A stretch of DNA of 64,000 nt from Mesostigma viride (Eukaryota; Streptophyta; Mesostigmatophyceae; Mesostigmatales; Mesostigmataceae): assembly GCA_009746045.1 (NCBI GenBank), contig RPFO01000115.1, positions 1-64,000 of the forward strand, written 5' to 3'. Made by a program: the position numbers and the translations under genes. Under the pieces are notes generated by a model that did no database searches, was not told the DNA's origin, and saw only the letters and a program-made list of their open reading frames with translations. This document shows positions 4,354 through 63,556 of the stretch, piece by piece; the first letter of the stretch is position 1; the number at the start of each line of letters is the position of its first letter.

Positions 4354-4400
4354 TGTAGGAAGAGGCAGTGGGAAGGGGGAGCGGTTTACCCTTTCGGTGT

Positions 4401-10400: not shown

Positions 10401-11114
10401 ACCCTCATGATCTTCCAGCCCAGCAATCTCTATTGCTTCACACCCTTCCAGGTCAGTCAGACAAGAAAATTGTTGATCAAGCAAAATTCTGTCAACTGGG
10501 TAGAATCTGGGTAAAGCAATCATGAGTGCAACACGTAGCTGCCCTGCAGACATGCCAGGTAGGGGTTCCATTACTGTGAACCTGGACCATGAGTCTTTTA
10601 GGATCAGGTAGGGTTGGACATCTTTGTTGATGTGCATCACATCCCCCACTATCATGCCCCTATTGGTGGAAGGAGTTGCAGTATGCCATTTTTGAGGTTT
10701 GGGGCTATTGAACTGACATTCTTGACAGTGTTGTCTAGCCAGTTTTACTGCATTCCTGAGTTGTTTTCCCATGCTACTACCCCCCAGCCGTCTGGCCAGT
10801 TCCTCAGCCACTGTTTCATGACCCATGGCTAGGTGCAGCTGATGAGCAAGCTCCTTGATATCTATGGAGTTGTCAACAGTAGGGGTTAGTGCTTTTATGT
10901 AAGGTTCCAGAACAGGGTGTTGGGAGGACAGTAAGGTTGCTGCCTCAAAATCAATTATGCCCTGGTTGCCATCCCCAATGGTAATGAGATCATCATCCTC
11001 AGAGTACATAAGGTGAGTGAACTCACATTGATTTGGGTAGCGAGGCCTGTTGCAACGGCTGCCTGGAGGCCCCAGGGGATGACGTGCGTGCCAGCAGCCC
11101 GGGCAGAGATCCAC
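7500..11114 (-). CDS. Copia-like Pol (integrase-protease-RT-RNase H), element 1
   Basis: This 1204-residue frame is also open upstream of the listed start through a CCHC zinc knuckle (CLRC-x4-H-x4-C, 11142-11183). A second Cys/His cluster, LCPGCWHARH, opens the listed frame. Then come the His/Cys zinc-binding segment (GHE...CQEC, about residues 97-145) and the integrase core with D in VGDVMHI, D in LLDQQFS and E in VIERTIRS. An SH3-like C-terminal domain follows (GDQVLYYKENSFGKVGTW). An aspartic protease with IDTQAQVSVIS lies near residue 520. RT has TDIKRAFLRG, EGLVSAPKIF and the catalytic box FVWHGDDQL near 891. RNase H has MDSSMESR near 1041, AECRAVVSA, YTDSQSV and DEDNPADALTK. No internal stop is present. 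The protease position after integrase and the HGDD box are atypical for Copia. Confidence 0.9.
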   Translation of the reverse strand: MDLCPGCWHARHPLGPPGSRCNRPRYPNQCEFTHLMYSEDDDLITIGDGNQGIIDFEAATLLSSQHPVLEPYIKALTPTVDNSIDIKELAHQLHLAMGHETVAEELARRLGGSSMGKQLRNAVKLARQHCQECQFNSPKPQKWHTATPSTNRGMIVGDVMHINKDVQPYLILKDSWSRFTVMEPLPGMSAGQLRVALMIALPRFYPVDRILLDQQFSCLTDLEGCEAIEIAGLEDHEGQGVIERTIRSVKTLLAKNPSKDATSGVYCDRALWCHEMCTTLNMRPVLHATWGEVIPAGLQAGVYPPEVIALYNTARAQTSAKLAEKDKTHSRPVFQKGDQVLYYKENSFGKVGTWLGPVTIRGFTKNSKTVEVKHNINGKRHRVSCHRIKKYYSPMADVPGEESLSMDSLLLSGNSSMPSSSSEPPITAVDSTTAPSVNPSTLSEARPTSQPGDCLTRHEVAGLEALAQPQGTKLSANPPALRSRLAVALQALHRSHKQQAAVAAGLAKVSAVCTSQDPWTLAIDTQAQVSVISAQAIPGLEIAPSFWARVQDFSGQSSLDVVGQVMLPILGIQTPFQVVEGYSGNTLLGEPFVSYPGVLISANELSVTGVGAVPLDHFKIPLSSIVPGMDAVIKAVNTQYAPGEIPDLDKLVHSQFLHPSAFGLGKWDIAMHSPHQISHVIQECKTQKGFTKWLMAIVHQARQEWVLPNPKNPQYKPPVTPSWDVPEGAKKLRLKFVLKQKPQKVGSPIFHARPCVTELKGTSTLPKGETYTPGLQQTSLRIMLSLFLHNLNAGQDYVCKATDIKRAFLRGDPEKAESVWKGKVYVVDTPAVWKPYIDEPHLIINIGVEGLVSAPKIFRDSAEEVFKKLKATYDDLDPCFFVVPTPSGLLFFVWHGDDQLICGPRAEVETFIQQVQESYEIGKQVELSTTPIQFCGIMLQLHRQPDQWVCSLSPPAEYIQDCLDLLQDNYLPLHMCATVQGKLGWWSAICGAPLAVISRVTHDVLVKIKCSHIRKLVNDCPPLILHGLNLMEDIHIQCVMDSSMESRTINQMGARESGLFFLTNRSDYMSLTSWYSRLHRRKPGSSNSAECRAVVSAALHARSLQHMLTWLQTQAGSTCNVISHLYTDSQSVISFLTKKSVSAAVHTDLDWVILKQEATYFSSWTHVDDEDNPADALTKLRDAAGQQYQLLFQNMNPYDIRVSV

Positions 11115-13812
11115 CCCGTTGGCCAGGGAGTCGTTGTTGGGGCAGTTGTGCCGTGCGTGCCCTCGTTGGAAGCACCTCAGGCACCTTATGGACCCCCCAG
11201 GGTTGCCAGGCTGGTTGTTGTTGTGTTGTTGTTGTTGTTGTTTCCCTGCTGGGACCGGTTCTGGCCCTGCTGGGACCTGTTGTTGTTGTTGTTTTGGCCC
11301 TGTTGGGACCTGTTGTTATTGTTGCCCTGCTGGGACCTGTTGTTGTTGTTGTTGTTGTTGGGGTTGCCATGCAGGGGCACACGGTGCCACGTGTTGCCAC
11401 GCCCCTGAGAGCCACTGCCCCCTTGGTGGGAGGACTTGTGGGTCTTGGGTGCCCCCCCTGGCTGGCCTGCCCCTTGCGTTTGTGGCCTTGGACACCCTGG
11501 ACCTTGGGGTCCTGGGCCTGGTTGTTGCCAGTACCCAGGGGGTCCACTGCCTCCTCGATATAGAGCATGGCAGCTCTGAAGTTGTCCCAGAGGGACTTGA
11601 GGCCTGTAAGCAGGGTAGCCAGGACAGAAGGTTGCAAATTAGCTTTTGTTAGCCAGGTGTGGATGAGATACCTTGGTTGGAGCTTGAGAAGCTCAAGGTC
11701 TTTCTCAATCATTACCCTGTATGTTTTTGCATCCCCAGAGAGGTTATTCTTGTTCACCTTATATGCAGCAAGCCAGTTGAAACGTTCTACTGCTTCCATG
11801 TGGTTATTGGTAAGCACTAGCTGTTTCAGATCAGTGATAAAGGTAGGCCACTGTTCAATGGCTGCTTCAGGTGTCAGGGTACGTTCCTGATAGGTTTGAA
11901 TCAATGCTCTGATTGCAGGAGATGATTGATGGAATGTGGAGGAGGCCCTGAGAGCCTTAAACTGATGTCTAAGGTTAAGACCTTCCATCCCATACTCCAA
12001 AGCAAAAACAAATTGCTTAGCTTGTTCAACAGTGTGACCCTCAGGCAAGCCAGCAATATTGATTTTGGATTCCTTTTTATGAGGGTTAAACACACCTGTG
12101 AGAGGGGGGTTGGCCCTCAAGAAGCTGTCGGTTGCTTGTTGCAGGCGGGTGGGGTCCAGGTTGATGGTCCCCCGCTCATACCGCGACATCAGGGCGCGCA
12201 GGCCCTCGACAGTTTGCAGCTGGTTAGCTGTTAACTGCTGATCTTGCAACGAGGCCAGCTGGGCCTGGAGAATGGCGAGCTGTTCCAGGACATCCCCGCT
12301 CCTTGGGGGGGCCTCAGCAGGCCTGTTGGGTGCCTGTGGCACCTCTGCACCTCCCCCCAGGGCCTCCTGGGGTCCTGGCCACCCCCCCTGGTTTGGGAGG
12401 GGGCCCCAACCCACAGGGCGAACCTGGGGTGGTGGGGGAGGGGGAGGGGGGGTCATGGTGGCCCTGGGGGAGCCCGGGGGTGTCCGGGTAACCCCACTGG
12501 GTCCAGCCCCATCGGTGGAGGGGCGGGCAGGGGTGTCTGCCTCTGCTCTCCTCCTGGCCTCCTCCCGCATGAGACGCTTCATCTCCTTGCGTACCTCATG
12601 CTCCCGGAGGGCTGCCTGAAAAGCAGCCTCATCCTCGGGTATGTCAGGGAGTGGTTCTCCCATGATCATAGCAGGCCGGACTGGACAGTCCGCCTCTTTG
12701 CCCTTCCTCGCGCCCAGGGCCAGCAGTCCCTCCTTGTACTGCAGGGGTTGGGGGGGAGAGGGTTTCTTGCTGGTGGTTTCCAGCGGGGGGGCTTCTTCAG
12801 CTACCACCCCATGTTTGGCCAAGATGGCCTCCGTGACCCTGGCTTGGGTGATGGAGGACATGGTTTTAAAGTGTGCTGACCGAGCAAGCTCGGCCAGGTC
12901 TTGACTGTCCGCATAGTGCATGGGATAGTCAGCATTTTTTAAGAGGTCACGTAACCGCTGGGTGGCCTCGCGGTACGCGTCCGCCATCGCCTGGTGGGTA
13001 GCCAGGCGACGGGCGGCTTCCTCTTCATATTCTTGCCGCTTAGCGGCGAGCCGAAAAGCCGCCTCTCGGCGGACCTCTCGGTCCCGCTGCCGCTCTCGGC
13101 GTTCTTCATTTGCCACCAGCGCGGCCTGCTCGACCGCCAGGAGCGCTGGGGTAAGATTGATCTCAGTCTCCCCATCGGGGAGACTGGCAGTGTCGGATAC
13201 CTCATCGTCGGACATTGGTTGTCCGGCGATGGGTTCCACAGGTTTTCGCACCACCCGTGCGAGTTTAATACTCTCCATGTCCTTCTTCTTGCGAAGAAGG
13301 GACGCAGAGGGTCGCCCAAACGTTAGCTCAATGTGGTTATGTCCCTGGGCGAAAGGGACATTAAGGTTTGATGTGGCGGGACGAAAGGTAATCGTCCCGT
13401 CCGGTGCCACCGAGGCCGTCTGACGGGGCATACGCTCCCGAAGAGATGGCAACGTGGGGCCGGACTGTGGAGCCTCAGTGGGGTTTACCACCGAGGTCTC
13501 CGCAGCCATGGCCGCGCCAGCCGTGGTTGCGGCTGGGGCGGCCGCCGGAGTCGAGGGTAAGCCGGTCTCCCCGGGGGGAGCCGTCTCGGCCTCCGGCCTC
13601 GCAGGGGAGGGGGGTAGGTCGGTCGGCTTTGCAGCCGCCGTCCCCTCGTCCTGGCAACCATTGTGAGTCTTTTTGTTCTTTTTCTTTTTCTTGGAAATGG
13701 CCGCATCGCCAGCCGGCTTCTTGTTGTTGTCTCTGGGCATCCGCCGATCCTGCCCATCATCATCCTCGTTGTAGGAAAGCTTCTTAGCGACATTCTTGTT
13801 CGTGATAGCCAT
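11023..13812 (-). CDS. Gag of Copia-like element 1
   Basis: The ATG at 13812 lies only 18 bases inside the 5' LTR, so the leader is very short. The protein is 929 residues as read. The N-terminal half is low complexity (Lys-, Pro- and Ala-rich with charged helices). The capsid-like part has INIAGLPEGHT and FHQSSPAIRALIQTYQER, which align with INVRGLPEGYT and YHQSSSQIQNLILVFQRR of the second family. From about 11455 onward the listed frame is probably wrong. Another frame there reads Asn-rich runs with RSQQG repeats, and the knuckle is in a third frame. The change coincides with a C7 run near 11445. The true Gag therefore likely passes through one or two indels before the zinc knuckle. Confidence 0.8.
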   Translation of the reverse strand: MAITNKNVAKKLSYNEDDDGQDRRMPRDNNKKPAGDAAISKKKKKNKKTHNGCQDEGTAAAKPTDLPPSPARPEAETAPPGETGLPSTPAAAPAATTAGAAMAAETSVVNPTEAPQSGPTLPSLRERMPRQTASVAPDGTITFRPATSNLNVPFAQGHNHIELTFGRPSASLLRKKKDMESIKLARVVRKPVEPIAGQPMSDDEVSDTASLPDGETEINLTPALLAVEQAALVANEERRERQRDREVRREAAFRLAAKRQEYEEEAARRLATHQAMADAYREATQRLRDLLKNADYPMHYADSQDLAELARSAHFKTMSSITQARVTEAILAKHGVVAEEAPPLETTSKKPSPPQPLQYKEGLLALGARKGKEADCPVRPAMIMGEPLPDIPEDEAAFQAALREHEVRKEMKRLMREEARRRAEADTPARPSTDGAGPSGVTRTPPGSPRATMTPPPPPPPPQVRPVGWGPLPNQGGWPGPQEALGGGAEVPQAPNRPAEAPPRSGDVLEQLAILQAQLASLQDQQLTANQLQTVEGLRALMSRYERGTINLDPTRLQQATDSFLRANPPLTGVFNPHKKESKINIAGLPEGHTVEQAKQFVFALEYGMEGLNLRHQFKALRASSTFHQSSPAIRALIQTYQERTLTPEAAIEQWPTFITDLKQLVLTNNHMEAVERFNWLAAYKVNKNNLSGDAKTYRVMIEKDLELLKLQPRYLIHTWLTKANLQPSVLATLLTGLKSLWDNFRAAMLYIEEAVDPLGTGNNQAQDPKVQGVQGHKRKGQASQGGHPRPTSPPTKGAVALRGVATRGTVCPCMATPTTTTTTTGPSRATITTGPNRAKTTTTTGPSRARTGPSRETTTTTTQQQPAWQPWGVHKVPEVLPTRARTAQLPQQRLPGQRGGSLPGLLARTSSPGASRQPLQQASLPKSM

Positions 13813-13830
13813 GGTAGCAAATAAAATTCA

Positions 13831-14303
13831 AGTTAGAATGCGGTGGGATATATTGCTTGAGAACACTGAAGGCTTGGAGCAATGAATTGCTTGGTTCATT
13901 AGAAAATAGGTTTACCCTTTATCAACGTTCCTCTCACCGGCTGCGCCGCCAGTGACCGTTGGGTGCAGACCGTTGGCCCGAGGCCGCACGATGACAGGTA
14001 GCTGCCTAGTCACTGCATCGTGCGATCACAAATCAATGCACGCTGCAGTACGGTCCCTATCTAGGATACTCTAGTACCGTCCAATGACAGGACACTACGT
14101 ATACTGGGTACTGACATCTGTCACGTACCTCAGTACCCAAAGTACCTATCTAGGGAAACGTATGCGACTCGACTAGCATCCCTATCTGCATAGCCCACGT
14201 GGTATTTATATTCACATACCAACGTGGGTTTACAAGGCTTATTCATACGTTGTATTCACAATGCCTTTGAGACTTAGTCTACAGCAAAGCATGGAGACTA
14301 ACT
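13831..14303 (-). repeat. 5' LTR of element 1
   Basis: 473 bp, matching 6653-7125. It is followed on the plus strand by the right copy of the CACGG duplication. The bases inside the element (minus strand TGAATTTTATTTGC) would be the primer site, but they do not begin with the usual TGG. Confidence 0.9.
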
Positions 14304-16654: not shown

Positions 16655-16828
16655 AATTGTTGTGTGTGTGTGTTGTTCACGTGTGCGTGTGTGTGTTGTG
16701 TGTGTTGTGTGTGTTGTGCGTGTGCGTGTGCGTGTGCGTGTGCGTGTGCGTGTGCGTGTGCGTGTGTGTGTGTATATAATTTTTTGTTGTGTGTGTGTGT
16801 TGTGTGTTGTACGTGCAAGGTGTATGTA
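16655..16828. repeat. GT-rich microsatellite leading into the 40-bp array
   Basis: Runs of (GT)n, TTGTGTGTG and (GTGCGT)n grade into the 40-bp minisatellite. Open frames here are repeat artefacts. Confidence 0.85.
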
Positions 16829-19292
16829 CATGTGTGTGCAGCCGGCCCTTGCGTGCGCGGTGTGTGTACGTTTCTGTGCAGCCGCCCCTTGCGTGCGCGG
16901 TGTATGTACGTGTGTGTGCATGCCGGCCCTTGCGTGCATGGTGTGTGTACGTGTGTGTGCAGCCGCCCCTTGCGTGCGCGGTGTATGTACATGTGTTTGC
17001 ACTCGCCCATTGCGTGCGCGGTGTATGTACGTGTGTGTGCAGCCGCCCCTTGCGTGCGCGGTGGATGTACGTGTGTGCGCACTCGCCCCTTGCGTGCGCG
17101 GTGTATGTACGTGTGTGTGCAGCCGCCCCTTGCGTGCGCGGTGTATGTACATGTGTGTGCATCCTTGTCCTTGCGTGCATGGTGTATGTACATGTGAGTG
17201 CCGTCGCCCCAACCGTGCATTGTGTATGTACGTGTGTGTGCAGCCGCCCCTTGCGTGCATGGTGTGTGTACATGTGTGTGCATCCTTGTCCTTGCGTGCA
17301 TGGTGTATGTACATGTGTTTGCACTCGCCCCTTGCGTGCGCGGTGTGTGTACGTGTGTGTGCAGCCGCCCCTTGCGTGCATGGTGTGTGTACATGTGTGT
17401 GCATCCTTGTCCTTGCGTGCATGGTGTGTGTACATGTGTGTGCAGCCGCCCCTTGCGTGCGCGGTGGATGTACATGTGCGGGCAGTTGCCCCTTGCGTGC
17501 GCGGTGTATGTACATGTGTTTGCACTCGCCCCTTGCGTGCGCGGTGTATGTACATGTGTGTGCAGCCGCCCCTTGCGTGCATGGTGTATGTACATGTGCT
17601 TGCACTGGCCCCGTGCGTGCGCGGTGTATGTACGTGTGTGTGCAGCCGCCCCTTGCGTGCGCGGTGTATGTACGTGCGTGTGCAGCCGCCCCTGGCGTGC
17701 GCGGTGTATGTACATGTGTGTGCATCCTTGTCCTTGCGTGCGCGGTGTATGTACATGTGTTTGCACTCGCCCCTTGCGTGCGCGGTGGATGTACATGTGT
17801 GTGCAGCCGCCCCTTGCGTGCATGGTTTATGTACATGTGTGTGCAGTCGCCGGCCCCGTGCGTGCGCAGTGGATGTACGTGTGTGTGCAGCCGCCCCGTG
17901 CGTGCATGGTGTGTGTACGTGTGTGTGCAGCAGCCCCTTGCGTGCGCGGTGTATGTACGTTTCTGTGCATGCCGGCCCTTGCGTGCATGGTGTATGTACA
18001 TGTGCTTGCACTGGCCCCTTGCGTGCGCGGTGTATGTACGTGTGTGTGCAGCCCCCCCTTGCGTGCGCGGTGTATGTACGTGTGTGCGCACTCGCCCCTT
18101 GCGTGCGCGGTGTATGTACGTGTGTGTGCAGCCGCCCCTTGCGTGCGCGGTGTATGTACATGTGTGTGCAGCCGCCCCTTGCGTGTGCGGTGGATGTACA
18201 TGTGCGGGCAGTTGCCCCTTGCGTGCGCGGTGTATGTACATGTGTTTGCACTCGCCCCTTGCGTGCGCGGTGTATGTACATGTGTGTGCAGCCGCCCCTT
18301 GCGTGCATGGTGTATGTACATGTGCTTGCACTGGCCCCGTGCGTGCGCGGTGTATGTACGTGTGTGTGCAGCCGCCCCTTGCGTGCGCGGTGTATGTACG
18401 TGTGTGCGCACTCGCCCCTTGCGTGCGCGGTGTATGTACGTGTGTGTGCAGCCGCCCCTTGCGTGCGCGGTGTATGTACATGTGTGTGCATCCTTGTCCT
18501 TGCGTGCGCGGTGTATGTACATGTGTTTGCACTCGCCCCTTGCGTGCGCGGTGTATGTACATGTGTGTGCAGCCGCCCCTTGCGTGCATGGTTTATGTAC
18601 ATGTGTGTGCAGTCGCCCCGTGCGTGCGCAGTGTATGTACGTGTGTGTGCAGCCGCCCCTTGCGTGCGTGGTGTGTGTACATGTGAGTGCAGCCGCCCCT
18701 TGCGTGCGCGGTGTATGTACGTGTGTGTGCAGCAGCCCCTTGCGTGCTTTGTGTGTGTACATGTGTGTGAATCCTTGTCCTTGCGTGCATGGTGTGTGTA
18801 CGTGTGTGTGCAGCCGCCCCTTGCGTGCATGGTGGATGTACATGTGAGTGCCGTTGCCCCTTGCGTGCGCGGTGTATGTACGTGTGTGTGCAGCCGTCCC
18901 TTAATTGCGTGCGCGGTGTGTGTACGTGTGTGTGCACTCGCCCCTTGCGTGCGCGGTGTATGTACGTGTGTGCAGCCGCCCCTTGCGTGCGCGGTGTATG
19001 CCAGTGTGTGTGCATGCCGGCCCTTGCGTGCAAGGTGGTGTGTAAGTGTGTGTGCAGCCCCTTGCGTGCATGGTGTATGTACGTGTGTGTGCAGCCGGCC
19101 CTTGCGTGCATGGTGTGTGTACATGTGAGTGCAGCCGTCCCTTCCGTGCATGGTGTGTGTACGTGTGTGTGCAGTTGCCCCTTGCGTGCGCAGTGTATGT
19201 ACGTGTGTGTGCATGCCGGCCCTTGCGTGCATGGTGTGTGTACGTGTGTGTGCAGTTGCCCCTTGCATGCGCGGTGTATGTACATGTGAGTG
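16829..19292. repeat. 40-bp minisatellite, segment 1
   Basis: The unit is about TGTATGTACGTGTGTGTGCA followed by GCCGCCCCTTGCGTGCGCGG. Variants are CACTCGCCCC, CATCCTTGTC, CATGCCGGCC and ACATGTG. Because 40 is not a multiple of three and the unit has no stop in nearly any frame, long open frames appear on both strands. I treat none as genes. Variant blocks of several units recur in the same order, so there is higher-order structure. The segment ends with GAGTG (19288-19292), the left target duplication of element 2. Confidence 0.92.
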
Positions 19293-19747
19293 AGTTAGAT
19301 GAGATGCTTAGGCTGACACACGGATTTCCGGCCTGCGCGCCGCGTATTGCCTACCGCGGCTGAGCGGGACACCTCAGTACAGTACGGCAGGGTGTACGGT
19401 ACTGAGGTGTCATGTGGACCGATGTGCGGTTAGTGCCAGACTGTTCCTAGGTGCTAGCTCGACCCGCCAGGTCCGGTGTAGCCGGGCCTGACGGGCCGAG
19501 TCTTAGCTGGATGCTAGTGACGTGGTCGCATGGCATTGCAGTGTACACTTGTCCACTGGTCGTGTGCTGCAGGTAGCACCGCCATAGGCATATAGGCGTA
19601 GCACTGGGGAGTGCCACAGCACCCGAGTCTGCCCAGTTCCATTCTGAGCCCTCAGCTTTCATCGCTCTCTCCTTGTATTATTGTAATACAATCATCATTC
19701 GCTCTCAGCTTTCGCAGTTGTTCGTCGTCCCTAGTCTCCATCCAACT
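19293..19747 (+). repeat. 5' LTR of element 2
   Basis: 455 bp, starting AGTTAGATGAG and ending CCATCCAACT. A 13-bp perfect stem (GACACCTCAGTAC with GTACTGAGGTGTC) lies at 19368-19411. It is followed by TGGACTGAAAAGTTCG, the candidate primer-binding site. Confidence 0.92.
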
Positions 19748-19791
19748 TGGACTGAAAAGTTCGATATTTTTTTTTAAGCAAAAAAAAAGAT

Positions 19792-20429
19792 ATGGCGTCC
19801 AACAACGGCATCAACGGCAACAACAACAAGGGGAAGGCGCCTGCCAGGCGCACCTCACCCCGCCTTTCGCCGGAGGGCACGCCCTCCACCACCGATGCGA
19901 GGGTGACGCCCAACGTCCCCTTCCGCACGGTGGTCGCTGACCAACCCAGGCGTCGGGGCCCGCAGGTGGGGCCCGGCGCCCGGGGGATGGCGAGCGGGCG
20001 GCCGTTTGCCACTGGCGGTTCGTCCGCCATGGCACCTGGGGGGCAGGTCCCCCGGGCACGACGTTCCCCCGTCGCAGGTGACGGGGGTCGTGAGCGGAGT
20101 GATTCCTCCGAGGAGGATGGCGAGGTGCCGCCTGCGAGGCCTCGGCCTTCGCTTGAGCTTTCGTCGCAGACACCTGCGACGTCGGGCAACCTTTCCGTGG
20201 GCCGACAGATGGCCACCATGGACATTGACCGGTATGGGGAACATGTTCCGCCCCCGGTCATGTTCGGGCGCCCACCCCATTTTCTCCCCCTTGGGGAGGA
20301 CGACATCCCGGCGTTCATTGCGGTGAACGGCCGGATCATGCTCCAACGTTTTCAGTTGCTTCCAGATGAGGAGATACACGCGATAGAGGTTCATCGGGTG
20401 CACTCGCTGATCGAGGGGCGTCTTAGGAT
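19792..20429 (+). pseudogene. Element 2 gag, 5' part, cut by the hAT-like insertion
   Basis: It starts at the ATG at 19792, 44 bases after the LTR. The N-terminus is Asn/Gly rich then Arg/Pro rich (MASNNGINGNNNKGK). A globular part follows with MDIDRYGEHVPPP, DDIPAFIAVNGRI and HRVHSLIEGRLR. The frame is intact through the GARGMASGRPF junction, where the other two copies lack one G. It is interrupted after GRLR by the insertion at 20430. In the copy at 58-60 kb the same text runs on directly into MQLPLVQVAVWLY. Confidence 0.85.
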
Positions 20430-22123
20430 CAGTGTGAGCCAGTACGGCAATACGGCAATACGGCAAAACCTCGGCGTATTGCGTATTGCCGTATTATACG
20501 CGTATTATACGCGTATTATACGCCAAAAAAAAAAAAGTGGTTTTTTGACCGGAAAAGTGGATTTTCAATTAGGATAAAATATTCTAAGGTGTTTATCCCA
20601 TGGGCGTGCCTCTCAAAAACTCTAGCTAATGTCTCAATCTTGATGAAAAACAATACAATGCACGTAGAGGTCGCCGGTAGCCGTTTGACACTCACTTGGT
20701 TGTCTCATCAATTGTATGAAGTGTAATTAATTAATTAATTAGTTAATTATCACGTGACTGCGTCACGTGGGTGCCAATACAAAGTAGAGGAACCTTCAAC
20801 CCCTGTACACAATGAGAGGGAGGGAGGGCGCCCTAGCTTCTCTCACTGCCACCGCCCACCAGTCGGTGGGCAGGCCACATCGAGCGCTCTATCCACATCA
20901 CGGGGCCGGGGCGCATCACTGTGGGACAACCATTATTAACGATACCAGAGGTAGGCTGAAGCATAGCTGATGCTGTACAAGAAAGGTGAAGTGGGCTCAA
21001 CGGGCGTCTGCTAAGGCATAAGCAAATGGCCACGCTGAGCCATGGCTGGGCTAATGTGATTGCGTTCATGCCACTCTAAACCGTTGGGGCTACTCTAAGC
21101 CGTTGGGGCTAGATCAGTATACTATGCTCGAGAAATACATGGCAAGTCATGCTATAATGTAAAAGCTATGTCGATTGCCCTCTTCTAGACAGCTGGCTAG
21201 AATCTATTCTGGGGGAGCCCTAGGGGGTGTCGACAGTTTGTTGTTTACATAAAGGTCATGAAGTGTGATACTCATCCACTGCATGGTATATAGATTGCTA
21301 ATTGAACTAATTCCTTATTACAACCATGAACTTATTGATAGGTATACGATTCGACCCAAAACCTTGATACAGTATGCAATAAAACGTGAACAGGATAGCA
21401 CATACCAGATCAAAACCGCAGATTAATTACCTTCCTTGCTGGAGCTAGCCGGATGCCCACCTCATCGATGTAGCTGCGAGCCGCTTTCCTGGCCGTCGTC
21501 GCCAATAAAACATGTCAGCAATATATTTTACACATCTATCCGCGTACAAACGTATCGACTTATTTCCCGCCTAGTAACAGTTAGCACATGCACGGCGACC
21601 GACCTGGTCGCTGATCAAACGACGTTGCTGCACCGAGCATAGGGTCGAGACATATCTGCGCACACCCAGGCGTTGCCTGCCAATGATATACGCTGTTTAG
21701 GACCTATGGATCATGCCTGCAAAATTGCAGTTCAAAATGTCAAGCCATGCTCCCATACCAGTCAGATTTCTGCACCTCCATGGCCGCGGAGGTCAACTAT
21801 CATATTTATGCAAGTCGGTCTCGTTTTGCCATCGTTTACCCACGCCGTCAACTGGCAGAGATGACAAGCGGGACCAACCGTAGGCCCGTACTCCCCAAGT
21901 ACGGTTCAGGCTGCGTACCTGCCTAGGTCAGCAACGCCAAAACTAGCTCTGGCGCCAAATTCCGGAGCCGGGCGCCGTATAATACGCGAAAAATACGTAT
22001 TATGCGCCGTATTGGCGTTGAGAACGCAATACGCCGTATTTCTAGTACGTTAGTACGCCAAACCCCGCCGTATTGTATAATACGGCGTATTTACCGTATT
22101 ATACGGCGTATTGGCGTTCACTG
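20430..22123. mobile_element. Non-autonomous hAT-like DNA transposon
   Basis: 1694 bp. It is flanked by the 8-bp duplication CTTAGGAT (20422-20429 and 22124-22131). The two other copies of this gag show the empty site with a single CTTAGGAT. Ends are CAGTGTGAGCCAGTACG and, reversed, CAGTGAACGCCAATACG. A CAGTG-type imperfect TIR with 8-bp TSD is typical of hAT. Both ends carry subterminal iterations of TACGGCGTATT and ATACGCGTATT (20440-20525 and 21975-22115). I see no transposase frame in the 1.4-kb interior, so it must be mobilised in trans. Confidence 0.88.
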
Positions 22124-23515
22124 CTTAGGATGCAGCTCCCACTGGTTCAGGTGGCGGTTTGGCTGTACTGTTTCGCCAATCGGCCGCGGCACAACCCCGG
22201 CACTGTTGATCAGTGGGCGTCCAGGCAGCGCCAGAGAGAGGCGCTGCGCGTGGTCTCCAGACCAGAGATCGCGCTGACTCCGTTGCCAGCGTGGCCCCAA
22301 GTCACGCCAGTTGGCTGGGGCCCGGATAGGCGTGAGGCGGCTGCGATGCCGCCTGCGACGGGGCGCGGGGCGGCAGACGCCCCCAACACGCCCATGGGTG
22401 GTGAAGCCACCCAGGACCCTCTGGCAGGTCAGAGGGTCCAACCTCAGCCGCAGGCTCCCCCGCCCCGCGTGGGGGGCCAGGTGGCTGAGGAGGTCACCGG
22501 GGTCGCAGGGACCCCGGCGGCGACACAAGCGCCCGGGGTCGCAGGGACCCCGGCAGCGACGCCGGCGCCTCCGGCGCTGGCGGGGGATGCAGCCCCCATG
22601 GAGGGTGTCACGGGCACCTCCAGCGGCTCTGGGGGGCAGGCCCCCTCTAGTCGCAACAAGGACAAGTCCCTGGCAGGGCCGGAGGGGCCCAGGGTCCCAC
22701 CGCAGCTGGGCAGCAACCAGCACTGCTGGAGGGCGACCTGCAAGGTCGCGACTTCATCACCCTGGTGATGAGGCCGTGTGGCGTGCCATACAGACAGCCA
22801 CAGCCTCCTTCCGTGGGCTGGCCGACAGGAGCCAGCAGATGCACGTCGCGGAGGCGGGCAGCCTGGTGTGTGCAATCATCACGCACATCCTGGGCCTGCC
22901 CAACCTCCAAGAGGGCACACGCAGGGTGTGCGACGACCTGCTGCCTGCCCTGCAGGCTCTCCTCTCAGGGAGGAGGGTGCAGGGCAGCAGGGTGCGTCTG
23001 GTGCGTTTGCTGGAGCTCCTACACAACGCCATCCTGAGAGGGGCGGGTAGGTGGCTAACTCTGCCTACCTGGTTGCATCACAATCTTACTAACCCTACTG
23101 ACGATGACGTGTCCCTCTCTCCCACCTTCCATGATTGGGAGGAGGCCCGCAGCAGGAGGCGGGAAGTGACACACACTCACACCCCCAACCAGCCCACCCC
23201 TATGTTGTCTAACCCTCCTACACAGCCCATGTTTGCCCATCCTGCTCAGCTCACTCAAGTAGCACTTCCCTCTCAGCAGGTCTCTCCTGTGAATGCTGCA
23301 GCAGCAACACCATCTTCTCCCTCTCCCCCTGCATCCCCCTCTAGGTTGCCCACTTACAATGAAAACCGTCCTGTGGATAGGATTAATGTCAGGGGGCTGC
23401 CTGAGGGGTATACTAGGGAGCAGGGGAATCATGCACTTCTCTCTCTGCAGCTGGCTAGGGAGGAACTGAATGTCAAGAATTGGTTTGGATCTCTCATGCA
23501 GGGGGATTTTACCAT
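22124..23515 (+). pseudogene. Element 2 gag, 3' part, frameshifted
   Basis: This continues gag after the hAT-like insertion. The reading goes MQLPLVQVAVWLYCFANRP, then a Pro/Ala/Gly-rich linker with GVAGTPAAT repeats, then a helical region (AVWRAIQTATASF to LLHNAILRGAGR), then a capsid-like part with INVRGLPEGYT and NVKNWFGSLMQGDF. Compared with the copy at 57.9-60.1 kb there are one-base losses near 22690 (GGGGCCCAGG for GGGGCCCCAGG), near 22765 (CCCTGGTG for CCCTGGGTG) and near 23508 (GGATTTTACC for GGATTTCTACC). It is therefore read in three frames, and the last loss puts it out of frame with the pol ORF. Confidence 0.8.
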
Positions 23516-24169
23516 CAGTCCTCTTCTCAGATTCAGAATCTCATTCTTGTCTTCCAGCGTAGGTATCCCAAGTGGCAGGACACGCAGGCTAGGGCAGTTT
23601 GGGAGGCTTTCATGAAGGAGCTAACTGACCTCCTCTCCACCCCCTCATCTGTGGACATCTATGGGGCATTCAGGTGGGTAGAGGAATACAGGGTCACATC
23701 AGTGGACTATGTGGCTGAGACAAAGAAATATGAGCTAGCCATCAAAGCACGTCCTGATGTCCAGCAGCTAGATCACAAGTTCTTGCTGCGTTCCTTCCTT
23801 GAGAAACTCAAACTTGACAAAAACACCTACGCCATGCTTGCAACAGGAATGGCAAAGTACTGGGAGGACATGAAGGAGGCATTGGATTATATCAAGCTGG
23901 CCTTGGCTCCCCTTAGCCAGGGGGCCATGGGCACCTCTGTAAAGAGGGTCAGGGGGGAAGAGAGGGAGGAGGAGGATAGGGAGAGGGAAGACAGGAGCAA
24001 GAGACCTGTCACTATGGCAGAAGTCAAGTCCCTGCTGGGACAAATGTTTAAGGGCAAGGGCAAGGGCAAGGGCAAGGGCAAGGGCAAGGGCAGGGGCTGG
24101 GGCAAGGGCAAGGGTAAGGGGCAGTCTCCCTCCAAGGGGGGCAGCTCCAGCAACAACAACAACAACAGT

Positions 24170-24214
<45 letters not shown>

Positions 24215-27200
24215 AACAACAACAACAACAAGAAGCAGGACAAGGAGGACAAGTCTTCTCAGCGGTGCACCCGCTGTGGCATGAAGTACCACCTGCGGCC
24301 CACCTGCCGCAAGAACGTGGACGAGCTGGGGCATTTGGACGTCCTGTGCCACAAGTGCCACGGGCCGCCCCACGGTGACCCCAAGGACTGCAAGCGGCCT
24401 CCTTACGGCAAGAAGTGTGAGTCTCCCTCTCATGCTGGCTTGAGTGTGCCTGCTTCACCTTCTTCTTCTGCATGCCCCACTGTCAGAGCAGTGAGCAGTT
24501 CTGGAAAGGTGCTACAGCTGGTTTCAGAAGATTATGTCTCTAAACCAACCTTCACATCTATGGTTCCCAAGGTGTGCAGAGTGTCCCCAGCAGAGGATGC
24601 TCAGATCAGTTTTCAGGAGCTTGCTTTGCAGTTGCATTTCCTTTATGGGCATGAAGTGAGTGCAGAGGTGGTGGCAGCAGCAATAGGGGGGGCAGCACTC
24701 AGACGTGCATGCCAGGTGGTCAGATCCCACTGCCAGCATTGTCAGTTCAATGCACCCAAACCCCCTAAGTGGCATGTAGCTACCCCACCTAAGAGCAAGG
24801 GCAGGGTGGTAGGAGATGTCTTTCATATCAAAGGACAATCTTACTTGGCACTTAAAGATGCATGGTCAAGGTACACAACCATTGAACCATTACCTGGAAT
24901 GGACAAGACACAGTTGCTCAGGGCTCTCTTGATTGCTCAGGCCAGGTACTACCCTGTGGAGGCATTGTTACTGGATCAGCAGTTCACATGTCTTGCCAAT
25001 GAACCAGGGTGTGAGGCTATTGATCTGGCTGGGCTAGAAGATCATGAGAGGCAAGGCATTATTGAAAGGGCCATCAGGTCCATTAAAACCCTTGTAGCCA
25101 AAGAAGATGGCAATCTGCTGGCTGACAGTGGGTCCTATGCTGACAGAGCTCTGTGGTCCACCAGGTTGTGCCAAGTCCTCAACAGGAGGCCACTCATGAA
25201 AACCCCACAAGGGGTGGTCATTACACCAGATGGATTGCATGCAGGCATTTATCCACCTGAGGTACTAGCCCTCTACAACGCACAGCGAGCACAGACAGCT
25301 AGCAGGTTAGCTGTCAAGGATGCAAAGCATCCACGTCCCACCTTCAGAGAAGGGGATCAGGTCCTATTCTACAAGGAGTCGGGACTAGGCAAGGTGGGTA
25401 CCTGGCATGGGCCAGCCACCATCCTAAAGTTTAACACCACTGGCAGGACAGTGTTAGTTAAACACAATGACACGGGAAAAATTCACAGGTGTTCACCTCA
25501 CAGGATGAAATTGTATTTTCCAACTGTGTCAGACGTGGCAGAGGAGGAAGAGCTGTTGGCCGACAGCCCTGTACAGTTGCCTGGCATCCCAGCGTTGCCC
25601 AGTGAGTGGTTGTTTGGAACACCCACTGGTGAGTGTGAGAGCCACACCCACTGTGACACCCAGGTCACCCTTGATGATTGCAGGCAGTCACTGCAGGATT
25701 GGCCCCCTGCAGCAGAGGGTCACATTGGCAAAACAGGTGATCAGCAACCTATCACCTCTACAAGTGTGAACATAGCTCAGCCACTAGCTGCACCTTCCAA
25801 ACGCAGCCTAGCAGACGCTGTTCGCATTTTACAAGCAGCTCATAGAGCCAAAGCTCAAACTGCTGCAGGATCAGCTAAGGTGGGGAAGGTTGGGCAGAAT
25901 GACAATAGCCCATTTATGGTTGCAGTGGACACACAAGCCCAGGTCAGCATTATCAGTGCCCTGGCTGTGCCCCATTTGCCTTTGGAACCTTCACCCTGGC
26001 ACCATGTGGCTGATTTCTCAGGGCAGTCATCCCTCAAGGTATTAGGTCAGGTCATGTTGACTATACTCGGTATCCCCACTCCTTTTCAGGTATTGGAAGG
26101 TTATAAAGGGAATGCTTTGTTGGGGGATCCTTTTCTCTGTTACCCTGGTGTCCTCATATCCAGTGATAGACTATCCATCCAGGACATGGGTGGTGTTGAT
26201 CTGAATCATTTCAAAATTTCTCTTGAAAAACTTCTTAACACCAACATTGCTTCTGTAAAATTTGCTACACCCAAGTATGCCCCAGGGCAAGAACCCTGTG
26301 TGGCAGACCTGGTTCACAACCAAAAACTTCATCCCAACTCATTTGGATTGGGCAAGCATGATGTGGCTAAAATGTCTCCTCTTTCTTATGAACAGATAGA
26401 GCAAGACTGTCGCACACACATAGGATTCCTAAAATGGGTGGAGGCCTTTAACAAGGCCAGGGAAGAATGGGTAGTGCCAGATCCTCTTAGTCCTTCTCAT
26501 ACTCCCCCTGTCACACCTATTGACAAAAAGCCTGCAGGGTGCAAGCACTTGCGCCTGAAGTTTGTGTGTAAACATAAGCCAGCAGCAGATGGGTCAGTCA
26601 TCTTTCATGCTAGACCTTGTGTGACAGAGTTCAAGGGCACCACTGATCTGACAGAGGCAGAGTTGTACACGCCAGGCATTCAGCAAACATCCCTAAAAAT
26701 CTTGCTGTCTGTCTTTGTGGGTCATCTCAATGATGGGGATGACTATATCTGTAAGGCTACAGACATTAAAAGGGCTTTCCTGAAAGGCTCACCTGAGATA
26801 GCACAACAAGTGTGGCATGGTCAGGTGTACGTAGTCTCCACTCCCAGAGTTTGGGCAAAACACATCCCTCAGCAGTACCTGAAAGCTAACATAGGTGTTG
26901 AAGGGCTGCAATCAGCTCCTCGCATTTTCAGGATGTCAGCTCAGGCTGTGTTTGAAAAGTTAGGGGCTAGATATGATGACATAGACCCTTGCTTCTTTGT
27001 GGTCCCACACCCTCATGGCATTCTCACCTTTGTGTGGCATGGGGATGATCAGCTGATTGCTGGGCCAAGGCGTGCTGTGGATGATTTTATTCAACAAGTG
27101 TCACAGCATTTTGAGATTGGCAAGCAAGTAGAGCTGGGCACCACTGCCATAAAATTTTGTGGCACAATGTTACAACTCCAGCAGCATCAAAACCAGTGGG

Positions 27201-27976
27201 TGTGTGCACTCTACTCTCCCAATGATTACATGCACAGCTGCTTGGAGGTTTTGCAAACAAAAATCAAACCTGGAGCCTGTCCTACCATTAGAGGCAAGCT
27301 GGGGTGGTTGTGCTCAACGTGTGCACCTCACCTGGCTGTGGTTAGCAGAGTTGATGATGATGTCTTGATGCAAGTAGGTCACAAAGCCATCACCAAAACT
27401 CTCCAGGAGGGCCCTCCCCTTATCTTGCACTCCTTGGATCTCCACAAAACCATTCACATCCAAGCTATGATGGATAGTTCCATGGAGTCCAGGCAGATTA
27501 CCAAGTTGCAGGCAAGGGAGTCAGGCTTGTATTTTGTGCAGAATGATGATGCACCCTTGTCTCTCATTTCATGGTACAGCCGGTTGCATAGACGCAAGGC
27601 TGTCAGCAGCAATGCTGCTGAGTGCAGGGCAGTGGTGTCAGCAGTGCTTCATGCCAGGTACTTGAATCATGTGCTGGTTTGGTTGCAGATGCAAGCAGGC
27701 AGCAATGCTGGGGTGGTGGCACACTTGCTCACTGACAGTCAGTCAGTCCTCAGTTTCCTTGCTAACCCCTATGCTGTCCACACTGATCTTGACTGGGTGG
27801 TCCTGAAACAGGAGTCCACCTACTGGGAGTCCACCCGTCACGTGGAGGACAAACACAACGCTGCTGATGCACTCACTAAAGTGCCTCAGCAGGCAGCTGA
27901 ACAATATCAGCTGTTGTACCACTTGATGAACCCCTATGGCAAGCAGGCAACCCTGCCCCATAGGGGGGACGCCTAG
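23480..27976 (+). CDS. Gag C-terminus and Pol polyprotein of element 2
   Basis: 1498 residues as an open frame. The first 10 or so residues are out of the true register. The capsid text starts at YHQSSSQIQ. Approximate order: capsid end to 150, Lys-Gly repeat (KGKGKG) near 195, Asn run near 230-250, two zinc knuckles (CTRC-x4-H-x4-C at 261 and CHKC-x4-H-x5-C), His/Cys zinc segment near 390-425, integrase with D in VGDVFHI (444), D in LLDQQFT and E in IIERAIRS, then an SH3-like end (GDQVLFYKESGLGKVGTW). Protease with VDTQAQVSIIS at 815 and ALLGDPFL follows. RT has TDIKRAFLKG, EGLQSAPRIF and FVWHGDDQL near 1187. RNase H has MDSSMESR (1331), AECRAVVSA, LTDSQSV and NAADALTK. All catalytic acids are present. 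This is the only uninterrupted pol of this family in the window. Confidence 0.92.
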
Positions 27977-29038
27977 CAGGGTCCTGTTCACCAGGGCCGC
28001 CTAGGTCACCCAGTACCCCTTGGGCAGGTCCAAGGGGTAGGTTGTGGCTTCCAGCAAGGGGGGTTGGTTGGAGTCTGTTTTCATACATCTGCGTGCCCTA
28101 TGCCCAATAAAATCTGTTTTGATTTTCTCAACACCATGGAATTTCGTTATGCACACCTTCATAGGTGGGCATGGGATGTATCTCACACCTTTATTCCCTA
28201 GGGCGTATGCCTTGGTGGAATGGCCTTGAGCTCAGTGGCTCAGGTGCCCCCATTCAAGTGGAGGGTCAAAGCTCCCTTGACAGGTGGTTACCCAGGACCC
28301 CAGTTCACTGTGGATATCCTGGGCCACCTGGCCTTACTGTTCAGTGGCAGTAAGGCATGGGTGCTGTCATGTTGTCTAGTACAACGTGCTCAGCACAGGT
28401 GCAGGATGAAATATTCCTGTCACCTGTCACCAGGACTTCAGTCACCCATGTGCAGGGCAGGGGTGGCTGGTCTCCCACGTTGTGCAGGTGCAATGTGGCC
28501 AGGTCCAGGATGTCATAGTCCTGTCACCTGTCACTCGGACTTCAGCCCCCTCTGTGCAGGGCAGGGGTGGCTGGTCCTCACATGTTGTGCAGGTACAACA
28601 TGGACAGTGCAGGGTGCAATAAACCTGTCCACTGTCACTCCTCAGGTTGCAGGTAACCTGAGCTCAGTTGACCCAGCCTGGCTGGGTATTTTTCTCTGAG
28701 TGGGCGATGATGATGGAACAACATGGAACCTCTTAAACGGTTACCTTGGCATTTTTACAATGGCTTTCTTGGCTGGTGATGCACTCCCTGGATAGGCAGA
28801 CAGGCATAGCTATCTCCCTTGTGAGCTCGCGAGGAGGAGGAACTCCCCGGGCATGTTGAGCTAAACGTGATGCCATCACAAGTATTGCACGAGTTCTGGG
28901 GCCCATCTTTTTCAGTCCAGATGTTGCAGTATGGGTGTCAGTTGCTCAGCACCTCAGTCAGCTTGGAGTCAGTCTCCTAGCTGGGCAGGGTCAGGCTTGA
29001 AGTCGCTAGCCTTCAACCTGAAAGGAAAACATAATGGG
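27977..29038 (+). other. 3' non-coding region of element 2
   Basis: There is no gene. AATAAA occurs near 28107 and 28619. A tandem duplication of about 105 bp (28400-28610, GTGCAGGGCAGGGGTGGCTGG in both copies, written here as its core GGCAGGGGTGGCTGG) recurs in all copies of the family. The polypurine tract ends at 29038. Confidence 0.75.
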
Positions 29039-29493
29039 AGTTAGATGAGATGCTTAGGCTGACACACGGATTTCCGGCCTGCGCGCCGCGTATTGCCTAC
29101 CGCGGCTGAGCGGGACACCTCAGTACAGTACGGCAGGGTGTACGGTACTGAGGTGTCATGTGGACCGATGTGCGGTTAGTGCCAGACTGTTCCTAGGTGC
29201 TAGCTCGACCCGCCAGGTCCGGTGTAGCCGGGCCTGACGGGCCGAGTCTTAGCTGGATGCTAGTGACGTGGTCGCATGGCATTGCAGTGTACACTTGTCC
29301 ACTGGTCGTGTGCTGCAGGTAGCACCGCCATAGGCATATAGGCGTAGCACTGGGGAGTGCCACAGCACCCGAGTCTGCCCAGTTCCATTCTGAGCCCTCA
29401 GCTTTCATCGCTCTCTCCTTGTATTATTGTAATACAATCATCATTCGCTCTCAGCTTTCGCAGTTGTTCGTCGTCCCTAGTCTCCATCCAACT
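29039..29493 (+). repeat. 3' LTR of element 2
   Basis: 455 bp, matching 19293-19747 at every copy-specific site I checked. It is followed by the GAGTG duplication and then 40-bp units. Confidence 0.92.
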
Positions 29494-32400
29494 GAGTGCA
29501 GCCGCCCAAGAGTATGTACATGTGAGTGCCGTCGCCCCTAATTGCGTGCATTGTGTGTGTAAGTGTGTGTGCAGCAGCCCCTTGCGTGCGCGGTGTATGT
29601 ACGTGTGTGTGCAGCCGCCCCTTGCGTGCATGGTGTATGTACATGTGAGTGCCGTTGCCCCTTGCGTGCGCGGTGTATGTACGTGTGTGTGCAGCCGTCC
29701 CTTGCGTGCGCGGTGGATGTACATGTGCGGGCAGTTGCCCCTTGCGTGCGCGGTGTATGTACGTGTGTGTGCAGCCGTCCCTTGCGTGCGCGGTGTATGT
29801 ACGTGTGTGTGCAGCCGCCCCTTGCGTGCATGGTGAGTGTAAGTGTGTGTGCAGCAGCCCCTTGCGTGCGCAGTGTATGTACGTGTGTGTGCAGCCGCCC
29901 CTTGCGTGCGCGGTGTGTGTATACTGTGTGTGCATGCCGGCCCTTGCGTGCATGGTGTGTGTACGTGTGTGTGCAGCCGCCCCTTACATGGGCGGTGTAT
30001 GTACGTGTGTGTGCATGCCGGCCCTTGCGTGCGCGGTGTATGTACGTGTTAATGCAGCCGCCCCTTGCGTGCGCAGTGTATGTCCATGTGTGGGCAGTTT
30101 CCCCTTGCGTGCGCGGTGTATGTACGTGTGTGTGCAGCCGGCCCTTGCGTGCGCGGTGTGTGTACATGTGTGTGCAGTTGCCCCTTGCGTGCGCGGTGTA
30201 TGTAAGTGTGTGTGCAGCCGGCCCTTGCGTGCGCGGTGTGTGTACATGTGAGTGCAGCTGCCCCAAGCGTGCGCGGTGTGTGTACATGTGTGTGCAGTTG
30301 CCCCTTGCGTGCGCGGTGGATGTACGTGTGTGTGCATGCCGGCAATTGCGTGCATGGTGTGTGTACGTGTGTGTGCAGCCGCCCCTTGCGTGCGCGGTGT
30401 GTGTACGTGTGTGTGCACTCGCCCCTTGCGTGCGCGGTGGATGTACATGTGTGTGCAGCCGCCCCTTGCGTGCATGGTGTATGTACGTGTGTGTGCAGCC
30501 GCCCCTTGCGTGCGCGGTGTATGTACGTGTTAATGCAGCCGCCCCTTCCGTGCGCAGTGTATGTCCATGTGTGGACAGTTTCCCCTTAATTGCGTGCGCG
30601 GTGTATGTACGTGTGTGTGCAGCCGCCCCTTGCGTGCGCGGTGGATGTACGTGTGTGTGCAGCCGCCCCTTGCGTGCGCGGTGTGTGTACGTGTGTGTGC
30701 AGCCGCCCCTTGCGTGCGCGGTGTATGTACATGTGAGTGCCGTCGCCCCAAGCGTGCATTTTGTGTGTCAGTGTGTGTGCAGCAGCCCCTTGCGTGCGCG
30801 GTGTATGTACGTGTGTGTGCAGCCGCCCCGTGGTTGCGCGGTGGATGTACATGTGAGTGGAGTTGCCCCTTGCGTGCGCGGTGTATGTACGTGTGTGTGC
30901 AGCCGCCCCTTGCGTGCGCGGTGTAGGTACGTGTGTGTGCAGCCGCCCCAAGCGTGCGCGGTGTATGTACGTGTGTGTGCAGCCGGCCCTTGCGTGCATG
31001 GTGTGTGTACGTGTGTGTGCAGCCGGCCCTTGCGTGCGCGGTGTAGGTACGTATGTGTGCAGTCGCCCCTTGGGTGCGCGGTGTAGGTACGTATGTGTGC
31101 AGCCGCCCCTTGCGTGCGCGGTGTATGTACGTGTGTGTGCAGCCGCCCCTTGCGTGCATGGTGTATGTACATGTGAGTGCCGTTGCCCCTTGCGTGCGCG
31201 GTGTATGTACGTGTGTGTGCAGCCGTCCCTTAATTGCGTGCACGGTGTGTGTACGTGTGTGTGCAGCCGCCCCTTGCGTGCATGGTGAGTGTACCTGTGC
31301 GTGAAGTCGCTCCTTGCGTGCATGGTGTGTGTACGTGTGTGTGCAGCCGCCCCTTGCGTGCATGGTGTATGTACATGTGAGTGCCGTTGCCCCAAGCGTG
31401 CATTGTGTGTGTAAGTGTGTGTGCAGCCGGCCCTTGCGTGCATGGTGTGTGTACATGTGAGTGCAGCCGGCCCTTGCGTGCATGGTGTGTGTACGTGTGT
31501 GTGCAGTTGCCCCTTGCGTGCGCGGTGTATGTACGTGTGTGTGCAGCCGGCCCCTGCGTGCGCGGTGTATGTACGTGTGTGTGCAGTTGCCCCTTGCGTG
31601 CGCGGTGGATGTACGTGTGTGTGCAGCCGGCCCTTGCGTGCGCGGTGTGTGTACATGTGAGTGCAGCTGCCCCAAGCGTGCGCGGTGTGTGTACATGTGT
31701 GTGCAGTTGCCCCTTGCGTGCGCGGTGGATGTACGTGTGTGTGCAGCCGCCCCTTGCGTGCGCGGTGTAGGTACGTGTGTGTGCAGCCGCCCCAAGCGTG
31801 CGCGGTGTGTGTACGTGTGTGTGCACTCGCCCCTTGCGTGCGCGGTGGATGTACATGTGTGTGCAGCCGCCCCTTGCGTGCATGGTGTATGTCCATGTGT
31901 GGGCAGTTGCCCCTTGCGTGCGCGGTGTATGTACATGTTTTTGCACTCGCCCCTTGCGTGCATGGTGTATGTATGTGTGTGTGCAGCCGCCCCTTGCGTG
32001 CGCGGTGGATGTACGTGTGTGTGCAGCCACCCCTTTCGTGCGCGGTGTATGTACATGTGAGTGCCGTCGCCCCAAGCGTGCATTTTGTGTGTAAGTGTGT
32101 GTGCAGCAGCCCCTTGCGTGCGCGGTGTATGTACGTGTGTGTGCAGCCGCCCCGTGGTTGCGCGGTGGATGTACATGTGAGTGGAGCCGGTCCTTGCGTG
32201 CGCGGTGTATGTACGTGTGTGTGCAGCCGCCCCTTGCGTGCGTGGTGTGTGTACATGTAAGTGCAGCCGCCCCTTGCGTGCGCGGTGTATGTACGTGTGT
32301 GTGCAGCCGCCCCAAGCGTGCGCGGTGTGTTACATGTGAGTGCAGCTGCCCCAAGCGTGCGCGGTGTGTGTACATGTGTGTGCAGTTGCCCCTTGCGTGC

Positions 32401-33197
32401 GCGGTGGATGTACGTGTGTGTGCATGCCGGCAATTGCGTGCATGGTGTGTGTACGTGTGTGTGCAGCCGCCCCTTGCGTGCGCGGTGTGTGTACGTGTGT
32501 GTGCACTCGCCCCTTGCGTGCGCGGTGGATGTACATGTGTGTGCAGCCGCCCCTTGCGTGCATGGTGTATGTCCATGTGTGGGCAGTTGCCCCTTGCGTG
32601 CGCGGCGTATGTACATGTTTTTGCACTCGCCCCTTGCGTGCATGGTGTATGTATGTGTGTGTGCAGCCGCCCCTTGCGTGCGCGGTGGATGTACGTGTGT
32701 GTGCAGCCACCCCTTTCGTGCGCGGTGTATGTACATGTGAGTGCCGTCGCCCCAAGCGTGCATTTTGTGTGTAAGTGTGTGTGCAGCAGCCCCTTGCGTG
32801 TGCGGTGTATGTACGTGTGTGTGCAGCCGTCCCTTGCGTGCGCGGTGTATGTACGTGTGTGTGCAGCCGCCCCTTGCGTGCATGGTGAGTGTAAGTGTGT
32901 GTGCAGCCGCCCCTTGCGTGCGCGGTGTAGGTACGTATGTGTGCAGCCGCCCCTTGCGTGCGCGGTGTATGTACGTGTGTGTGCAGCCGCCCCAAGCGTG
33001 CGCGGTGTGTGTACATGTGAGTGCAGCTGCCCCAAGCGTGCGCGGTGTGTGTACATGTGTGTGCAGTTGCCCCTTGCGTGCGCGGTGGATGTACGTGTGT
33101 GTGCATGCCGGCAATTGCGTGCATGGTGTGTGTACGTGTGTGTGCAGCCGCCCCTTGCGTGCGCGGTGTGTGTACATGTGAGTGCCGTCGCCCCAAG
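29494..33197. repeat. 40-bp minisatellite, segment 2
   Basis: This continues segment 1 after element 2. Blocks carrying CATGCCGGCAATTGCGTGC, CATTTTGTGTGTAAG and CCCCGTGGTTGCGCGG recur at several hundred bases' spacing (for example near 30.3, 32.4 and 33.1 kb), showing recent block duplication. It ends ...GTCGCCCCAAG at the left duplication of the TIR element. Confidence 0.92.
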
Positions 33198-53867: not shown

Positions 53868-53915
<48 letters not shown>

Positions 53916-56583: not shown

Positions 56584-56627
56584 ATCTTTTTTTTGCTTGT
56601 AAAAAAAATATCGAACTTTTCAGTCCA

Positions 56628-57531: not shown

Positions 57532-57576
<45 letters not shown>

Positions 57577-63473: not shown

Positions 63474-63556
63474 GCTCCGGCGCATTTAGTGGTGCGTGCT
63501 CAGCGGCCTAGGCGGATGTCTCGGGCTCTTCGTCCCCCTCCACGAGGCCAGGTTTT
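63426..63556 (+). repeat. Cassette S2 between palindromes, plus orientation
   Basis: 131 bp, identical in wording to S3 except for a C5 instead of C6 run. Confidence 0.9.

Follow-up and report, generated by a model that had tools for sequence, protein, structure and literature searches.

A Copia-related retrotransposon lineage of Mesostigma viride with a retropepsin-like segment between integrase and reverse transcriptase

Retrotransposons of the window

The stretch of Mesostigma viride DNA analysed here (the window; 64,000 nucleotides) carries LTR retrotransposons of two families, A and B. The first copy of element A lies on the plus strand and spans 19293-29493 from LTR to LTR. Its 455-bp LTRs (19293-19747 and 29039-29493) are 100% identical, begin with AGTT and end with AACT, and the copy is flanked by a 5-bp target duplication, GAGTG, at 19288-19292 and 29494-29498. 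The ORF at 23480-27976 (plus strand) extends over 1498 codons without a stop and encodes the end of Gag with a zinc knuckle identified by reading of the motif (C-x2-C-x4-H-x4-C, residues 263-276, 24266-24307), an integrase (24635-25549; zinc His386, catalytic residues D446, D499 and E529) whose C-terminal domain reaches approximately residue 690, a retropepsin-like domain (residues 810-905, 25907-26194) bearing D817-T818-Q819-A820 and, near its end, ALLGDPF, a reverse transcriptase (RT; 26525-27259) with the box WHGDD at residue 1186, and an RNase H-like C-terminal region (27455-27937) that compares with the canonical Copia RNase H at a profile probability of 49. This order, Gag knuckle - integrase - retropepsin-like segment - RT - RNase H, had been proposed in an earlier note on this DNA, and it is real. 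The distance from the first integrase Asp to the segment, put at about 370 residues in that note, measures 371 (446 to 817), and the segment indeed lies past the integrase C-terminal domain and before RT.

Two further copies of element A are found on the minus strand. The outer one (43757-60747), with 100% identical LTRs at 43757-44211 and 60293-60747, is split at about pol codon 395 by a nested copy (48588-57082), whose LTRs (48588-49042 and 56628-57082) are also 100% identical and which is flanked by the target duplication AGTGC; the ORF of the nested copy is itself broken between the retropepsin-like domain and RT. The target duplication of the outer copy, CACAC, falls within a repeat array, which makes the match less telling. 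A programmed Gag-Pol frameshift in element A is unsupported: the break does not fall at the same site in the two families, and capsid and pol share a reading frame in one A copy.

Element B occupies 6653-14303 on the minus strand, a strand not given for this second family in the earlier note, with 473-bp LTRs (13831-14303 and 6653-7125) that are 100% identical and a target duplication, CCGTG. Its pol ORF (7503-11114, minus strand; 1204 aa) has the same domain order as that of element A, with the integrase at 9930-10835 (His94; D158, D213, E243), the retropepsin-like domain at 9279-9566 (D524-T-Q-A) and WHGDD at residue 894, and is accompanied by a gag ORF of 929 aa at 11023-13812.

The LTRs of families A, B and C (the last being found elsewhere in the genome) all have the ends AGTT...AACT rather than TG...CA. 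The seven LTR pairs examined in these families are 98.8-100% identical, the pairs of three family C stretches being 99.8%, 98.8% and 100% identical (the third in L036). Identical 5-mers flank the AGTT...AACT ends in five of six pairs (three of A, one of B and that of C copy L035), while the flanks of C copy L034, situated in a repeat array, differ by one base. The near-identical LTR pairs, the short target duplications and the many near-identical copies described below show that the lineage has transposed recently. In A, B and C, the sequence 3' of the 5' LTR has no evident likeness to the plant initiator tRNA-Met primer-binding motif.

Several other features surround these elements. The first A copy contains a 1.69-kb foreign insertion (20430-22123), missing in the other two A copies of the window, which is bordered by an 8-bp duplication, CTTAGGAT, and has inverted ends starting with CAGTG; it looks like a non-autonomous hAT transposon. 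Minisatellites of approximately 40 bp lie beside the first and the outer A copies (16812-19292, 29512-33194, 42821-43756 and 60748-62881), and C copy L034 adjoins a similar array, so that an insertion preference for minisatellites is possible. A 993-aa ORF at 1810-4791 (minus strand) shows, by eye, RT-like and perhaps recombinase-like stretches, with no Pfam match at E<=1. Finally, window bases 1-174 are related to a 338-bp tandem repeat, with inverted repeats, that fills positions 62882-64000.

Domain order in four families and in textbook Copia elements

Two additional families from elsewhere in the genome, C (L034, L035) and D (L044), display the order integrase - retropepsin-like segment - RT - RNase H. 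The four families are 45-64% alike. The earlier note had described the element at 7500-11114 as an independent family: B is a separate family, yet it is the sister of A within a single lineage (54% identity). Its view that the order is a lineage trait and not a feature of one rearranged copy is supported by the recurrence of integrase - retropepsin-like segment - RT in all four families.

Each family is present in many copies, as judged from searches of the same genome in which matches were counted singly and one element may yield several. Family A gave at least 42 matches, at least 8 of them stop-free across at least 1472 residues, and family B at least 38, all 38 listed being identical over 1204 residues. 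At least 71 matches were obtained for family C, the full 1249-residue open frame being present in 13 among the matches listed. Family D gave at least 70, and the open frame is 797 aa long in 65 of the 70 listed; in L045, the sole 797-aa match read, it opens in the linker between integrase and the retropepsin-like domain, after integrase. A single uninterrupted polyprotein is left unsupported for most D copies, and the L045 type could reflect a frame break common to these copies, or programmed frameshifting. In family C, a TGA separates gag and pol in L034 (3284-3286), L035 and L037, and is in frame in L034; stop read-through or the use of two ORFs is possible. In the C stretch L036, a deletion has fused Gag to the later part of the retropepsin-like domain.

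Protein searches recovered three eukprot models named Mesvir1 (scanned as P0006, P0007 and P0008), one of which is 97% identical to element A, a match that by itself points to a genome of Mesostigma viride or a very close one. Gene model P0006, which comes from another source and presumably from a different strain or assembly, joins the end of integrase, the retropepsin-like segment and the connector before RT, so that this part of the order is independent of the assembly studied here. Relatives outside Mesostigma were neither found in the protein searches, which returned only the Mesvir1 models and the window's own protein, nor confirmed in viral contigs, by methods that depend on identical words or short conserved stretches in common and that distant algal relatives could escape.

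For comparison, four canonical Copia families (L040-L043) were picked from high-scoring RVT_2 matches (best 150) of the same genome and their order was checked. Pfam revealed the succession Pol_BBD protease - gag_pre-integrs - rve - SH3 - RVT_2 in L041, L042 and L043, with RVT_2 at E 1.6e-48 to 1.6e-42, Pol_BBD at E 1.8e-9 to 4.1e-15, and gag_pre-integrs (all three) and rve (L043) just below cut-off; L040 also has the textbook order, by motif. The protease motif is DSAASSHM in three of these families and DTGATYHM in one.

The RT of the A-D lineage is of Copia type by profile comparison. Element A matches RVT_2 above cut-off (residues 1016-1215, E 3.7e-9) and B below it (22.4 bits), with no Pfam match to RVT_2 in C and D. 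A profile built from the four families aligned to the canonical Copia RTs over 199 columns (L040-L043; probability 95.3, E 2.3e-8) and scored 0.2 against gypsy-type RTs, a control of limited power given that canonical Copia RTs themselves reached only 0.3 against the same gypsy-type set. Integrase is upstream of RT in all four families; both are atypical, a point that the earlier note did not raise. The rve match to its core in A (438-501) was below cut-off both with the whole ORF (E 0.031) and with the piece alone (E 0.0072), and comparison with the canonical integrase gave a probability of only 0.8, though with the zinc finger and the first Asp lined up. The second and third catalytic residues are separated by 29 residues in all four families versus 35 in L040-L043, and the third is Glu in families A and B but Asp in the other two (C, GLIDR in L034; D, GMIDR in L044). 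The integrase spacing, like the unusual LTR ends and the high identity of the LTR pairs, was overlooked in the earlier note. We file the lineage as Copia-related by its RT and outside textbook Copia, since the place of the protease, the integrase spacing and the LTR ends all depart from the textbook element.

The segment between integrase and reverse transcriptase

The segment behaves as a separate conserved domain. Between A and B its identity (residues 810-905) is 65% (62 of 95 aligned positions), close to the 64% of RT and the 66% of RNase H; the preceding linker and the following connector are only 27% and 46% identical. In the alignment of the four families, 30 of 104 columns are invariant, including D, T, A, V-S and, further on, the Gly of Leu-x-Gly. 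The motif, which the earlier note did not recognise as Asp-Thr-Gln/Met-Ala rather than Asp-Thr-Gly, reads D-T-Q-A in A, B and D and D-T-M-A in C. A pattern requiring V-S-[IV]-[IT]-S after the motif gave 39 matches in the window and the fetched loci (16 DTQA, 23 DTMA), at 36 distinct places when three overlapping loci are discounted; the loop Gly was found at none of these 36, Gln or Met standing in its place. Since D[ST][GAQ] recurs elsewhere in the A frame, at residues 34 (DTQA, in Gag), 549 and 664 (integrase), 726 (linker) and 1419, the three-letter motif alone is no proof.

Searches with trimmed pieces against 24,736 Pfam families returned PF13975 (clan AA) as the best match, with most of the profile covered, for A (E 0.028 and 0.089), B (E 0.12) and D (E 0.21), at 12.6-15.5 bits versus a curated cut-off of 28.2. 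No protease match was obtained in Pfam with the trimmed C piece, a longer B piece, the full-length A, B, C and D proteins, or P0006, P0007 and P0008. The retropepsin assignment that the earlier note expected from such a search thus holds for the family that ranks first in A, B and D and falls short in its scores, all below cut-off, and in C and the full-length proteins, where it is missing.

The order and spacing of motifs in the segment follow those of this genome's gypsy-type proteases, a label that rests on RVP_2/PF13975 matches and on the RT motif by eye. Compared with five such proteases (L046, L058, L059, which is near-identical to L058, L061 and L062; L057 and L060, which gave no motif-filter reading, were left out), the A-D profile scored 21.8, above all of 300 column shuffles, Asp on Asp and in register, with low nominal probabilities (2.1 and 9.2) and only 18 columns aligned in the better run. 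The score of a first run, against nine nearly identical sequences read from a single gypsy-type family, was reached by 3 of 200 shuffles. Two predicted structures had pLDDT values of 42 and 56, with no retropepsin recorded among the best 50 Foldseek matches of each; in the re-examined match list of the second low-confidence model, retropepsins appear as weak matches at ranks 2, 3 and 9.

In A, B and C, nothing recognisable as a protease precedes integrase. Neither of the two findings that the earlier note named as refuting its view was made, the Pfam support for a protease fold staying below cut-off. In A, D[ST][GAQ] is absent from the approximately 110 residues between the knuckle (263-276) and zinc His386 of integrase, a space shared with a second Cys-rich stretch and probably too short for a retropepsin. 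The DTQA at residue 34 belongs to a stretch of Gag alignable with the Gag of B, in a context that is not protease-like. The B gag has no Pfam match at E<=1, its only D[ST][GAQ] stretches are DTAS and DSQ, and the C gag ORF yielded no protease match in Pfam.

Taken on its sequence, the domain of approximately 95 residues between integrase and RT probably works like a retropepsin, the Asp-Thr-x-Ala loop serving as a dimeric active site. We file it as probably retropepsin-like, its membership in the retropepsins being unproven.

Mechanism, origin and known systems

We consider it probable that these elements constitute a lineage of LTR retrotransposons with a Copia-type RT and the order Gag - integrase - retropepsin-like protease - RT - RNase H. 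Gag and Pol would be made as polyproteins and packed into particles, and the protease segments of adjacent chains would pair. The protease would then cut on both its sides, parting integrase from RT-RNase H, and would subsequently mature Gag in the particle. As to its origin, the Copia protease was probably lost and a protease of the gypsy or gag-asp type gained in the linker between integrase and RT. In its furthest form this reading has a lineage related to Copia losing its protease, capturing in that linker a gypsy-type retropepsin with a working Gly-less active site, and possessing an integrase (29-residue spacing, Glu or Asp) that co-evolved with the AGTT...AACT ends; we hold this to be a serious possibility, slightly less likely than not.

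An assembly or annotation artefact, or a single rearranged copy, might be suspected in a window that contains nested copies and minisatellites, but it can practically be dismissed in view of the four families, the identity of all 38 listed B matches, the 13 full C frames among the matches listed, and P0006 from another source. Very improbable, too, is a small beta domain of unrelated origin in which Asp-Thr-x-Ala...Leu-Leu-Gly arose by chance. Every profile score is below cut-off, both low-pLDDT models were recorded without a retropepsin among the best 50 matches, and D-T-Q also occurs at residues 34 and 726 of the A frame; nevertheless one Pfam family, PF13975, tops the list for three of the four families, none of the 300 shuffles reached the profile score, and the order and spacing of motifs are as in gypsy-type proteases. 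The domain could also retain the retropepsin fold without cleaving, the polyprotein being matured by a host protease or not at all and the domain acting as a dimerisation or spacer module. The consistent Asp-Thr-Gln (A, B, D) or Asp-Thr-Met (C), without Gly at any of the 36 places, fits such a loss, and a comparison with the canonical Copia families, three of the four read also lacking Gly, is tempered by the small Ala that they have there. Asp, Thr and the next Ala are however invariant across families that are only 45-64% alike, and the youth of these families speaks for a working site, which renders a dead domain improbable.

A further alternative concerns the origin only and leaves the order and the cleavage role unchanged: the Copia protease would have moved past integrase by internal rearrangement and then diverged. 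It has the merit that no donor is needed, as A-D possess a Copia-type RT. On the other hand, none of the four trimmed segments (A-D) matches Pol_BBD, as three canonical families do, and the A-D profile aligns in register with the gypsy-type proteases (score 21.8) but off register with the canonical ones (16.2), a comparison of low power in that gypsy-type against canonical proteases scored only 17.6. We regard a move as somewhat unlikely. Replacement by a protease of the gypsy or gag-asp type is tentatively favoured over it because the trimmed segments match PF13975 and never Pol_BBD.

With Ty1/Copia elements (Pseudoviridae), the lineage shares LTRs, a Gag zinc knuckle (A, B, C), integrase upstream of RT, a Copia-type RT and 5-bp target duplications. 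It differs in the retropepsin-like segment placed after integrase in A-D, the integrase spacing of 29 instead of 35, the RT box WHGDD versus HVDD, the LTR ends AGTT...AACT, and the lack of Pol_BBD or gag_pre-integrs matches in the lineage. PMC3248453 places the Ty1/Copia integrase between protease and RT; it considers the swap of a protease for a similar module and holds insensitive profiles to be the likelier cause of protease variability. The Pseudoviridae profile of the ICTV lists PR, INT and RT-RH domains (PMC8515867). Best matched by profile are gag-asp_proteas (PF13975) and the gypsy-type RVP_2, with which the segment shares the succession D-[ST]-x-A ... hydrophobic-Leu-Gly; those read outside the A-D lineage have a loop Gly, unlike A-D with Gln or Met.

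Precedents for single traits exist among Ty3/Gypsy elements. The Gmr1 clade is presented in PMC2774666, citing Goodwin and Poulter 2002, as having a Copia-like integrase order. Gmr1 is similar to A-D in that an altered Pol order is a lineage trait, and dissimilar in that it is the position of integrase that is altered, in a gypsy element. The protease of Gmr1 remains first. The Zam clade has LTR ends of the form AGTTA...TAAYT, not TG...CA, according to PMC3601003; it resembles A-D in these ends, yet Zam is gypsy whereas A-D are Copia-type by RT. An integrase-before-protease order (IN-PR-RT and like notations) was not found in the literature searched, where the usual order was, most subscription papers lying outside its scope. 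The young Copia-related lineage of Mesostigma viride comprises at least four families with a protease-like segment after integrase, in a genome whose ordinary Copia elements keep the textbook order.

The order of Pol domains serves to sort LTR elements, and the Copia protease is described before integrase. A protease in a new place in a young lineage indicates that the order can change while elements still spread, and makes protease exchange a testable proposition. A retropepsin working with Asp-Thr-Gln or Asp-Thr-Met would, if true, break a supposedly fixed rule of its family. An integrase whose spacing is altered, in elements whose ends are altered too, lends itself to a natural test of how the enzyme recognises those ends.
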